Assembly (NCBI GenBank): GCA_012513515.1
Contig: JAAZCA010000015.1
Coordinates: forward strand, 1-24,858
Length of the DNA stretch: 24,858 bases
Reading direction: 5' to 3'
Source of the DNA: Myxococcales bacterium
GTDB taxonomy: Bacteria; UBA10199; 2-02-FULL-44-16; JAAZCA01
Of the stretch, positions 6,260 through 24,858 are shown piece by piece. Position 1 is the first letter of the stretch; every line of letters begins with the position of its first letter. The position numbers and the translations under genes were made by a program. The notes under the pieces are model-generated. The model was not told the origin of the DNA. It searched no databases and worked only from the letters and a program-made list of their open reading frames with translations.

Positions 6260-6289
6260 GTCATCCCCGAATAATTTTATCGCAGATCC
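6260..6289. repeat. REP-like repeat, degenerate copy
   Basis: GTCATCCCCGAATAATTTTA followed by TCGCAGATCC matches the unit at 8595-8624, with the second hairpin arm decayed (CGCAGAT in place of CGGGGAT). It lies between carD and ispD, so it is in the ispD upstream region. Confidence 0.5.
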
Positions 6290-6308
6290 CATGAGAAACA
6301 TCAAAATA

Positions 6309-8227: not shown

Positions 8228-8546
8228 AACCTACCTCCCTCTCTCTCGGGCGCTTACCATGCAAGAGGCTTGCCATATTTTAACAGTATAACTAAGTGAA
8301 ATTACTAAATAAAAATAGATGAGGAGCGCTGGAAGTCGCAAAAATACCCCAAAATGAGGAAATTACGGGGTTTTGAATCCCCAGAGTCAATTTTTGGACA
8401 TTTCACGAAATGGAGAGGGACTAAGCAAAATAGGGGATCCGGTGAATGCTGTGATATGCTTCAAAACCTTTCCACAAGATTTTTTGAACGCCAAAAAGTC
8501 GAAGCCGGACCAAGAAATATATCGCTCAGGAAGGAGAAATTTTAGC
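8228..8546. other. AT-rich spacer with no gene seen
   Basis: No coding sequence is supported. On the minus strand TATACT (8290-8285) with TTTATT 17 bp upstream (8313-8308) could be the promoter of the small operon. The rest is AT-rich, with a GGGGATCC fragment near 8435 that recalls an arm of the REP unit at 8595. Confidence 0.4.
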
Positions 8547-8594
8547 AACCTCCGAAAAACTATGCTCTTGTCATCCCCGAATGACGAGAAGGTT

Positions 8595-8624
8595 GTCATC
8601 CCCGAGTGCTTTAATCGGGGATCC
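8595..8624. repeat. REP-like hairpin repeat, intact copy
   Basis: ATCCCCGA (8598-8605) and TCGGGGAT (8615-8622) form an 8-bp stem in a unit starting GTCATCCCCGA. A half copy (TCATCCCCGA) lies just before it at 8571, and a degenerate copy at 6260-6289. Confidence 0.65.
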
Positions 8625-8649
8625 AGCAACGACCGTGACCGGGAAAAAC

Positions 8650-8790
8650 AGAAGCCAGAAGCGAGAGGCTAGAAGCTAGAAAAATCTCGCCTGGAGAAAT
8701 ATCGCTTCTCACTTCTAGATTCTAGCTTCTTGATGTTTTGGTCGATGGTCAATCGTCCATGGTCGAAGTTATTGTTACAGCTAGCTTTTC
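8650..8790 (-). repeat. 141-bp dispersed repeat, copy A
   Basis: Its reverse complement aligns without gaps to 24718-24858, with 8 differences in 141 bases. Read in the direction of the gene ending at 8804, it starts 13 bp after the stop. It contains GAAAAGCTAGCTGTAACAAT, a GACCATGGACGATTGACC block, and then AGAAGCTAGAA, which can pair with the distal TTCTGGCTTCT to form a long imperfect hairpin. Confidence 0.9.
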
Positions 8791-8803
8791 GGAGGTTACC
8801 TTA

Positions 8804-9886
8804 TTAGATTCGATCCTGCGCAGGACCGTCCATTATATTTGAAGGGATCTTCTCTAAAATGTTAAGTCCTATCGATTTCGTAATGAAGATCCCCCCCAGT
8901 ATAAGCCAGAGGTAGGCTGTAAAAAATCTCCACAGGACAACGAATACTCCTAGTATGTGCGTCGGCAGATAGGCAGAGAACATCAGGTATGATCCACCCT
9001 CCGCCACGCCGGATCCACCAGGGGTAGGCGTGAAATACAGGAAAAAATAAAGGACGAACTGGATCATTATGACATCCAGCGGAGCTATGTAGAATCCAAG
9101 TCCGACGATTATCGCATAGGCTATCAGATAGTTCATCGCTAGCGCCAAAACCGTAAGCACAACTACAACCAGTACAGTCTTCTTCTGGTAGCGCATGAAA
9201 TTCTTCATGCACTTCACGAAGTCCTCTATCCAGACATCGATTTTTTTCTCAAAGCTTCCCGCGTACCGCGAAAGAAATTTACACTTCGATATTCGCATGC
9301 GAATCTTGCGTATGAATTTCCCCACCTTTCTCGGTCTATAAAAGGCATATATCAACGCCATTACAAGCATGACTATTACAGTTGCAATCAGGTAGAAGAA
9401 CCATCTCAGATGCTCGTTTTGAACAAGCTCACCGCGAAAAAAAATCACAGCTGGCGCACCCATGACTATCAACAGAAGAACGAGAAAACCGCGCATCAAT
9501 GCTACGCTGAGAGCCTTGCCGAACGGAACCCCCTTGCTGGTTAGCATGTAGATCATGAGGGGTTCGCCGCCGGTTGCCGTAGGAGATATCGAGGAAAGAA
9601 AGTAATAGGAGATGATCGTCTCTATGGAATACAAAAATCCGATTTTGATTCCCGCAGCCGCTTTGACAAGCAGTCTCATGATCACAGCGTTCATAACGAT
9701 CATTCCAGAGCTGAGAACGAAGGCTAGCAGCATGTAAGAGCTCTTCATCTCGAGGATCGCGTGCCAAGTTTTGGGACCCGCCGTTTTGCCAACGACAAAA
9801 CCTATGATCACTATCGTGATAGCGCAGAAAATTAAAAAAAGCCGCTTTATCGAGGCCTTTTTTTTTCGAGCTGCCCTTTTTAGCAT
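8804..9886 (-). CDS. Flippase-like integral membrane protein (LPG synthase TM / UPF0104 family)
   Basis: A 360-residue inner membrane protein with a basic N-terminus (MLKRAARKKKASIKR) and about eight hydrophobic segments. The conserved SSISPTATGGEPL motif (about 96-108), a following VALMRGF, and PTPGGSGVAEGG near residue 290 are typical of the lysylphosphatidylglycerol synthetase transmembrane domain family, whose members translocate or modify lipids. The catalytic C-terminal domain of MprF is absent, as in many stand-alone members, so transport of a lipid or isoprenoid-linked glycan is the more likely role (inference). The ribosome site GGGTGGTG is moderate. It is a single gene, and the 141-bp repeat lies directly after its stop. 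Confidence 0.88.
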   Translation of the reverse strand: MLKRAARKKKASIKRLFLIFCAITIVIIGFVVGKTAGPKTWHAILEMKSSYMLLAFVLSSGMIVMNAVIMRLLVKAAAGIKIGFLYSIETIISYYFLSSISPTATGGEPLMIYMLTSKGVPFGKALSVALMRGFLVLLLIVMGAPAVIFFRGELVQNEHLRWFFYLIATVIVMLVMALIYAFYRPRKVGKFIRKIRMRISKCKFLSRYAGSFEKKIDVWIEDFVKCMKNFMRYQKKTVLVVVVLTVLALAMNYLIAYAIIVGLGFYIAPLDVIMIQFVLYFFLYFTPTPGGSGVAEGGSYLMFSAYLPTHILGVFVVLWRFFTAYLWLILGGIFITKSIGLNILEKIPSNIMDGPAQDRI

Positions 9887-22241: not shown

Positions 22242-22955
22242 ATGAAAAAAATTTTAACACTGGCAGCTGTTCTGTTTTTATCACTTCCTGCGGCGCTTTT
22301 GGCCGAGGAGATTCTTTTGGAAGAATATGAGATCACTGGAAATATCGAAGAGATAAATCTGGAACCGGCACCCGCGAGCTCTCCTACAAAAAGAAATCCC
22401 AAAAAGGCCACATCATATGAAAGACCGGCCAGCCGAAGCAGCCAGCAAGTAGGTGAAGTCGAGGTAAGCATAGACAAACGTGTCAAGATAGCTCCGGCTT
22501 TCACGGCCGAGCCGAGAGAGGGGACCTTCAGGGTAGGGCTTGTCGGCCCCGGCATCTACGTGGGGAACAAGGGAATAGACACGATGATGGGGATAGGAGC
22601 AGAGGGCGAGTATTTCATCTTTGAAAGGTTGTCAGCCGGAATGAAAATTCAGGTGGCCACGGACTTCGCCAGCAACAACGAGCTCAATTCGATTCTAAGC
22701 TTCATCCCGCAGGCAAGATACCTCTTCGATTTTGACAGCCATCCGAGGTGGACGGCCTATGTACAGGCCGGGGCAGGGATAGCCCTCCTAGACGGCAGCT
22801 CTGTTGCCGCAGATATCGCCATACCCGGCGGAGGAATATGGTGGCAGTACAACGAAAAACTTTCCATTGGTCTCGACCTTTCATTGCACATACTTGCCAG
22901 AAGTTCGACGGCGGTGGCCTTTTTCGCCGGACCGGCATTTAGATACCAGTTCTGA
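22242..22955 (+). CDS. Outer membrane beta-barrel protein, unknown role
   Basis: 237 residues with a clear signal peptide (MKKILTLAAVLFLSLPAALLAEE). A proline/serine/lysine-rich linker (about 45-75) precedes a C-terminal barrel region from about 90, with alternating strands (FRVGLVGPGIYV, GIGAEGEYFIFERL, QARYLFDF, WTAYVQAGAGIALL) and a terminal phenylalanine in FRYQF, the usual signal for barrel assembly. It resembles small OMP_b-brl proteins; the substrate is unknown. TGGAGG precedes the ATG. It overlaps the adenine deaminase start by one base (TGATG), so the two are coupled. Confidence 0.8.
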   Translation: MKKILTLAAVLFLSLPAALLAEEILLEEYEITGNIEEINLEPAPASSPTKRNPKKATSYERPASRSSQQVGEVEVSIDKRVKIAPAFTAEPREGTFRVGLVGPGIYVGNKGIDTMMGIGAEGEYFIFERLSAGMKIQVATDFASNNELNSILSFIPQARYLFDFDSHPRWTAYVQAGAGIALLDGSSVAADIAIPGGGIWWQYNEKLSIGLDLSLHILARSSTAVAFFAGPAFRYQF

Positions 22956-24676
22956 TGAAAAAATATCAGATCAAACACAGGATAGATGTCGCAGCTGGAA
23001 GAAAACCTGCAGACCTCCTGCTGAAAAACTGCAGGGTCGTCTCCGTTCTCGCCGATGAAGTGGTCAATACCAGCGTGGCGATAGCCGACGGCGTCATAGT
23101 TGGTTTTGGCAATTACAGCGCCAAAAAAGAGATCGACCTGGGCGGAGGATATCTCTCCGCCGGCCTCATTGACAGCCATATACATATCGAAAGCACTTTG
23201 CTCGTACCTCAGGAATTCGCAAAGACGGCACTCATCCACGGTACGACCGCGGTAATAGCCGACCCCCATGAAATCGCGAATGTCATGGGCGCCGCCGGAA
23301 TACGCTGGATGATCAAGGCCAGCGAGGGGCTCCCTCTCGACATCAACATAGTGCTTCCATCGTGCGTTCCCGCCTCCAGATTTGAAAGCCCGTGGGGCAC
23401 CTTTGGCAGCAGCGATCTGAAAAAACTGGCCTCGCTTCCGAGGGTGATCGGAATCGGCGAAGTCATGAATTATCCGAAAGTCATTGCAGGAGATCCCGAA
23501 TTCCTCAGGAAGATCCGCCTGATCCCAGGAATGCGCGTCGACGGACATGCACCGGGGCTCACCGGCAAAGATCTAAACGCGTACATAGCGGCTGGAATAC
23601 ACTCCGACCATGAAAGCACAAAGGCATCCGAGGCAAAGGAAAAGCTCCTTGCGGGTCTGCACATAATGGTACGAGAAGGAAGTTCGGAAAAGAATCTCAA
23701 CGAGATAGCCAAAATCATCACCCCCGCAAATTCACACCGTTGCTTTTTCTGCTCGGACGACAGGAGCGCCCACGACCTGGTTAACAAGGGCCACATAGAT
23801 GAAATACTTCGCATGGCGGTGCGTGCGGGAATACCTCCGATCACCGCCCTGCAGATGGCCACGAACAACGCCCCCTATTATTTCCGTATCAAGCGGAGAA
23901 AAGGGGCGGTGGCCGTAGGGTATGCTGCAGACCTGGTGGTTTTTGACAGCCTGAAAAAATTCAACGCCAGAATGGTATTCAAAGAAGGAAAGCTTGCCGC
24001 CAAAGATGGTGAGATCTTAATTCCCTGCAAGGCCAATTTCGCCCCGAAGGTAGAAAATAGCGTAAACCTCGCTCGCACAGAACTCGAAGTTTTCAGGGTA
24101 AAAGCCCAAGCTGGAAAAATGAGGGTCATGAGGATCATCCCCGGCCAGATAACCACGGAGCTCGAAACAGCAAGGCCATCAGTATCCGATGGCCTTGTTG
24201 AATCGGATATTTCTAGGGATCTCCTGAAGGTTACAGTTTTGGAGCGTCATCACGCCAGCGGAAGATTTTGCACCGGCTTCGTCAGGGGATTCGGCCTGAA
24301 AAAAGGCGCGATAGCCTCCACCGTATGCCATGATGCGCACAACATAGTGGTGGTTGGAACAAATGATCGCGATATGCTCTGCGCCGTCATAGAACTCGTA
24401 AGATGCAAAGGGGGATTCGTAGCCACATGCGGTGAAAAGGTAGTGGACTCTCTGCCGCTTCCAGTCGCAGGGCTAATGTCCAACATGCCAGCGGCAGATG
24501 TAGCCTCCGCTTACACCAGGATAGAAAAAACGCTGAAAAAGCTTGGTTCTGCTGTCGATGACGCATTCCTGACCATGTCCTTTCTGTCGCTCTCGGTGAT
24601 ACCGAAGATCAGAATCACGGACCGCGGCATCATAGACGTAAACGGAGACAGAATAGTCCCCCTCTTCCTGAAATAG
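22955..24676 (+). CDS. ade: Adenine deaminase
   Basis: Converts adenine to hypoxanthine and ammonia in purine salvage; cytosolic amidohydrolase with a binuclear metal centre. 573 residues, family length. Metal and catalytic residues are visible: DSHIHIES (His75, His77), ADPHEIANV (His105), GEVMNY (Glu169), DGHAPGL (His198), SDHE (His219) and CSDDR (Asp268/269). The C-terminal adenine-deaminase domain is complete (GFGLKKGAIASTVCHDAHN). The ATG overlaps the stop of the barrel protein by one base and lacks its own ribosome site, so it is read by re-initiation. No terminator is seen; a 141-bp repeat follows 41 bp later. Confidence 0.96.
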   Translation: MKKYQIKHRIDVAAGRKPADLLLKNCRVVSVLADEVVNTSVAIADGVIVGFGNYSAKKEIDLGGGYLSAGLIDSHIHIESTLLVPQEFAKTALIHGTTAVIADPHEIANVMGAAGIRWMIKASEGLPLDINIVLPSCVPASRFESPWGTFGSSDLKKLASLPRVIGIGEVMNYPKVIAGDPEFLRKIRLIPGMRVDGHAPGLTGKDLNAYIAAGIHSDHESTKASEAKEKLLAGLHIMVREGSSEKNLNEIAKIITPANSHRCFFCSDDRSAHDLVNKGHIDEILRMAVRAGIPPITALQMATNNAPYYFRIKRRKGAVAVGYAADLVVFDSLKKFNARMVFKEGKLAAKDGEILIPCKANFAPKVENSVNLARTELEVFRVKAQAGKMRVMRIIPGQITTELETARPSVSDGLVESDISRDLLKVTVLERHHASGRFCTGFVRGFGLKKGAIASTVCHDAHNIVVVGTNDRDMLCAVIELVRCKGGFVATCGEKVVDSLPLPVAGLMSNMPAADVASAYTRIEKTLKKLGSAVDDAFLTMSFLSLSVIPKIRITDRGIIDVNGDRIVPLFLK

Positions 24677-24717
24677 TACGCCCCGCCAGAGACATGAATT
24701 CAAATTTAGGAATCTCT

Positions 24718-24858
24718 GAAAAGCTAGCTGTAACAATAACTTCGACCATGGACGATTGACCATAGACCAAAACATCAAGAAGCTAGAACCTAGAAGTGAG
24801 AAGCAATATTTTTACAGGCGAGGTTTTTCTAGCTTCTAACCTCTCGCTTCTAGCTTCT
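24718..24858 (+). repeat. 141-bp dispersed repeat, copy B (runs to window edge)
   Basis: Gapless match (133 of 141) to the reverse complement of 8650-8790. It starts 41 bp after the adenine deaminase stop and may continue outside the window. The arms AGAAGCTAGAA (24778-24788) and TTCTAGCTTCT (24848-24858) are perfectly complementary here. Confidence 0.9.

Follow-up and report, generated by a model that had tools for sequence, protein, structure and literature searches.

The 141-bp repeat that occurs twice in the window (the whole 24,858-nucleotide stretch of DNA analyzed here) is very probably the inner part of a non-autonomous MITE family, which is found whole only in its own genome. Its members have terminal inverted repeats (TIRs), are shorter than ~500 bp, contain no transposase gene, show a moderate target-duplication signal, reach a high copy number and lie mostly between genes. 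The gene-end RNA signal that was first read from the sequence is a false lead, and its place is taken here by a MITE family that can be defined within a little-studied lineage.

The two copies and their true extent

The two copies in the window, 8650-8790 (-) and 24718-24858 (+), match without gaps at 133 of 141 positions, and the E value of the pair in a search of the genome (3e-58) excludes chance. They begin 13 bp (copy A) and 41 bp (copy B) after a stop codon, and their hairpin arms pair in both copies with a single G-U/A-U difference, all as the sequence-only reading had claimed. That reading also took the 141 bp for the unit of repetition. The copies are real but these boundaries are wrong, as the 141 bp are the inner part of an element of 129-385 bp. 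The similarity of copy A exceeds the 141 bp and reaches about 8545, while copy B is cut off by the assembly where contig C15 ends, at 24858 (Table 1). Copy A holds open frames of chance size only.

Table 1 Features of the two elements and their neighboring genes in the window
Feature	Position	Strand	Remarks
Element A, complete, ~255 bp, with both TIRs	8545..8799	-	between stop codon 8804 and the next gene
Left TIR of element A, GTAACCTCCGAAAA	8786..8799	-	
Right TIR of element A, GCAACCTCCGAAAA on the + strand	8545..8558	+	
Hairpin module of element A (the hairpin reported first)	8650..8730	-	a pair of degenerate 7-bp arrays in inverted orientation, AGAAGCT / AGCTTCT
REP-like palindrome module of element A, GGATCCCCGATTAAAGCACTCGGGGATGACA...	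8568..8640	-	occurs by itself elsewhere in the class
Element B, left part only	24709..24858	+	left TIR, TTGACCA array and hairpin; contig end cuts off the rest
Left TIR of element B, GGAATCTCTGAAAA	24709-24722	+	
The 141 bp reported first, in element B	24718..24858	+	start falls within the TIR
LPG_synthase_TM gene, neighbor of copy A	8804-9886	-	stop codon at 8804
Adenine deaminase gene, neighbor of copy B	22955-24676	+	

Copies, ends and target duplication

A search of the whole genome with the repeat, as the sequence-only reading had proposed, gave at least 40 matches in the 1.79 Mb and 42 contigs of this uncultivated bacterium. When copies are aligned, one end of the element (GGAACCTCYGAAAAGCTAGC...) is seen to be the inverted repeat of the other (...GCTGATTTTTCRGAGGTTAC). 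The 12-bp core of this TIR, AACCTCYGAAAA (also written GGAACCTCYGAAAA / GNAACCTCYGAAAA), has 52 exact occurrences in the genome, and the reversed control pattern has none. Both ends could be extracted for 22 elements, which measure 129-385 bp from core to core, a length insufficient for a transposase gene. Several elements have a second TIR-like box (CCTCTRAAAA) ~28 bp inside the end.

The sequences flanking the 22 elements can be used to look for a duplicated target. With several lengths and offsets tried and the p values uncorrected for this choice, an exact 4-bp flank match is found in 9 elements against a shuffle mean of 4.1 (p 0.004), the matches other than TTAA alone number 4 against 0.9 expected (p 0.006), and a 2-bp TA reading of the duplication, which fits about as well, is found in 14 (p 0.002). 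The matching 4-bp flanks are TTAA in five cases, and TCAA, TTAT, TTAG and TTTA. The signal is moderate and points to a TTAA-like target duplication of 4 bp, with TA (2 bp) as the alternative.

Care must be taken with repeats of this kind in a fragmented assembly, as collapsed or duplicated contig ends could mimic many copies. The assembly breaks off within an element at 16 contig ends, copy B's included, and several of the contig-end sequences are identical, so distinct copies are fewer than matches. An artefact of this origin is nevertheless extremely improbable, as many copies lie inside long contigs with unique, differing flanks on both sides; for these interior copies it is refuted.

Interior modules

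Seven modules make up the map, which covers 72 places; copies were read as stretches, and module counts outside these stretches are lower bounds. The order runs from the left TIR through a TTGACCA array, the hairpin, two REP-like palindrome modules and a GATC/GATTAA array to the right TIR. Both the order and the relative strand of the modules are nearly constant, and copies differ mainly by the absence of modules; there are small exceptions, as at C29:212960, where the GATC/GATTAA module precedes the palindromes. Several variants keep their TIRs and have no hairpin. A near-constant order with differing losses is what would be expected if internal deletions had shortened a single long ancestor. 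The window also holds a solitary REP-like palindrome module without TIRs, between two genes at 6260-6290 (-).

A 7-bp period runs through the elements, with an identity of 0.36 at lag 7 and 0.35 at lag 14, whereas the remaining lags give ~0.20-0.28 and intergenic DNA outside the elements gives ~0.26. It stems from different units, approximately TTGACCA, AGAAGCT, AGTCACG and TGATCNC. The hairpin is an AGAAGCT array opposite its inverse, a product of the two oppositely oriented arrays of degenerate 7-bp units in the interior.

Gene context

Elements are largely confined to the space between genes. Only 1 of the 72 places scored lies inside an ORF, although 82% of the DNA retrieved is coding, and this one place probably reflects an over-extended start of a gene call (gene calls were simple longest-frame calls). 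Insertions that survive between genes only will leave many copies near stop codons by default, and it is by chance, not as a gene-end signal, that the repeat follows two genes of the window. The equal orientation of the copies relative to their genes holds for the two in the window but not for the family: among 32 hairpin copies whose upstream gene could be scored, 15 lie on the same strand as the upstream gene and 17 on the opposite strand, and relative to the downstream gene the counts are 15 and 16. Between convergent genes there is no significant excess (10/42 vs 22/123, p 0.5). In two sister genera the adenine deaminase gene has no copy of the element in its 3' flank, nor has the LPG_synthase_TM gene in a third; these flanks have diverged too far for a precise empty site to be recognized.

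RNA structure and covariation

The sequence-only reading proposed a terminator, mRNA stabilizer or mobile 3' element under selection for RNA structure. Its mobile part stands, given the many copies, the TIRs, the target-duplication signal and the intergenic placement. A selected RNA 3' element after genes, whether terminator or mRNA stabilizer, could draw on the position of both window copies after stop codons, on the sequence GTTTTTC after the hairpin and on the folding of the window hairpins, which is better than that of shuffles (z -3.3 and -2.1). Element A as a whole folds with a z of -7.0 against shuffles, as is expected of an element with inverted repeats.

Selection for the structure had been argued from one wobble change as its sole basis, and the other copies lend it nothing. 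In the helix register first reported, 0 of 26 pairs show a two-sided change among 11 distinct hairpin sequences, and an alternative register (slide +1) shows one such change in one copy; the hairpin copies are 96% identical, which leaves a covariation test little power. Covariation gives no support to pairing under selection. Covariance models from Rfam gave nothing above the gathering score at the element, and a consensus terminator scan gave nothing at copy A. With orientation balanced across the family, no significant excess between convergent genes, several TIR-keeping variants devoid of the hairpin and homologous genes elsewhere that do without the element, a selected RNA 3' element is very unlikely. 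The gene-end bias and the compensatory changes expected of it are borne out neither in orientation nor in pairing. Single copies could have been co-opted in this role, and an effect of single copies on neighboring transcripts is conceivable.

Search for a transposase

For the MITE family, the observed ends, copies, duplication signal, loss of modules and intergenic restriction suggest how it may have arisen. A DDE-type transposase, absent now or unrecognized, would have acted in trans and moved the element by cut-and-paste at TTAA-like sites, and later internal deletions, aided by the short repeats of the interior, would have produced the shortened variants.

Searches for PF13358, PF01609 and PF01797 found no autonomous element with the TIR of the family, and both DDE_3 (PF13358) and DDE_Tnp_1 (PF01609) are absent from the genome. 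An IS630-type transposase, the candidate parent under the TA reading, was rejected on the absence of PF13358. IS5 elements have the target site YTAR, and the 4-bp duplication is compatible with a YTAR-like site, which would allow a link to the IS5 group; an IS5-type transposase was not found in the genome. Around the PF01609 genes of relatives no TIRs were found except one inside a gene of genome G001 (C3:7406-7419; locus L087, at 2077). This is the only exact TIR core of that genome and may be there by chance.

The genome does have two Y1_Tnp (RAYT-like) genes, at C19:40794-41120 (L081) and C29:25451-25783 (L082). The repeats in their flanks are CGTCAGACGGAGCA / CGTCCGACGTGC-like and bear no relation to the elements. 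RAYT was rejected as the mover, as neither Y1_Tnp locus has modules or TIRs, and the repeats flanking the RAYT gene that are a trait of REP/RAYT systems were found at neither. These genes also bear on a rival account, in which the repeat is no transposon and independent REP-like palindromes and 7-bp arrays accreted between genes into a BIME-like mosaic, perhaps driven by Y1_Tnp/RAYT. Modules do occur alone in other genomes, Y1_Tnp genes are at hand and TIRs are entirely missing from several hairpin copies. However, accretion is unlikely as an account of the family, given how little the modules vary in order and orientation from copy to copy, the paired TIRs with their target-duplication signal and the Y1_Tnp loci free of any part of the element. 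It may be the origin of the ancestor's interior.

Related sequences in other genomes

The MITE as a whole is absent from the other genomes searched in the family and class, all of which come from other genera. Parts of it are more widely spread. Five genomes have the palindrome module by itself, AGAAGCT arrays without TIRs occur in one genome of the same family, and other 7-bp arrays occur in another family. Free arrays of the 7-bp units TAGCGTC and AGTGTCC were seen in G043 (L123 and L126).

Exact TIR cores are found within the class in G005 (7), G009 (12), G026 (11) and G038 (10), with none for the controls. In other families of the class the core mostly bounds elements of 123-150 bp whose interiors are unrelated and often palindromic. 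Such short elements include L098-L102 (G005), L104-L107 (G009), L108-L110 (G026), L111-L113 (G038), L114 (G012) and L115 (G023), many being near-perfect palindromes. The flanks of some resemble 5-bp duplications by eye, for instance TGGCG at L113.

It is this sharing of a TIR among elements with exchanged interiors that merits further attention. As a tentative explanation, one TIR system (the GNAACCTCYGAAAA core) of several families in the class might mobilize exchangeable cargo. It is possible, though doubtful, that in each lineage the same ends acquired different local repeats, turning free repeats into mobile cassettes. If true, this would offer a route between sites for REP-like palindromes and 7-bp arrays, the spread of which is poorly explained.

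Pattern scans for the hairpin in collections of genome contigs and viral contigs gave no match. Among plasmids the sole match covers 32 bp and is to a simple (AGCTTCT)n array. On the Raoultella planticola plasmid LC735983.1, a perfect (AGCTTCT)n array at ~73,900 (L142) adjoins an annotated ISPa67 (IS5-like) transposase gene.

Comparison with known systems

MITEs with size variants and a modular structure are already known (PMC10969869, PMC2229807, PMC3049150), as are 7-bp repeats (PMC4679880, PMC4692102) and REP palindromes (PMC3733652). A literature search for the TIR core found no description of it and returned unrelated papers only, none on bacterial repeats.

The closest parallels include Correia/NEMIS of Neisseria and Chunjie-1 (PMC2229807, PMC10969869), which are likewise short, non-coding, TIR-bounded and intergenic, with size variants differing in inner stretches, target duplication and stable stem-loops. 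Chunjie also has many partial copies without TIRs, as here. The TIRs are unrelated as far as known, and in the present family the range of modules is wider (129-385 bp), the interior is rich in 7-bp arrays and a 4-bp TTAA-like duplication is possible as well as TA. BOX elements of Streptococcus pneumoniae (PMC3049150) are similarly modular, high in copy number and TIR-ended, with a length set by inner modules. In BOX it is mainly the count of boxB repeats that varies, whereas copies of the present family lack different modules of a near-fixed order, and no significant excess is found between convergent genes.

Individual modules also have their counterparts. Each of two inner modules is a short G+C-rich palindrome beside a GTC motif and is reminiscent of the CGTC-tagged REP palindromes (PMC3733652). 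One of the two occurs alone in several genomes. A dedicated transposase is not known for the CGTC family (PMC3733652). The palindromes here differ in lying within an element bounded by TIRs. The TAACTGA repeats of Beggiatoaceae and cyanobacteria (PMC4679880) and the GGGAATC repeats of Xanthomonas (PMC4692102) are likewise intergenic arrays of a 7-bp unit in many copies, and for the latter an association with mobile elements is reported to be generally absent (PMC4692102). Both are free arrays, whereas the different 7-bp units of the present family sit inside a transposable element, as its modules.
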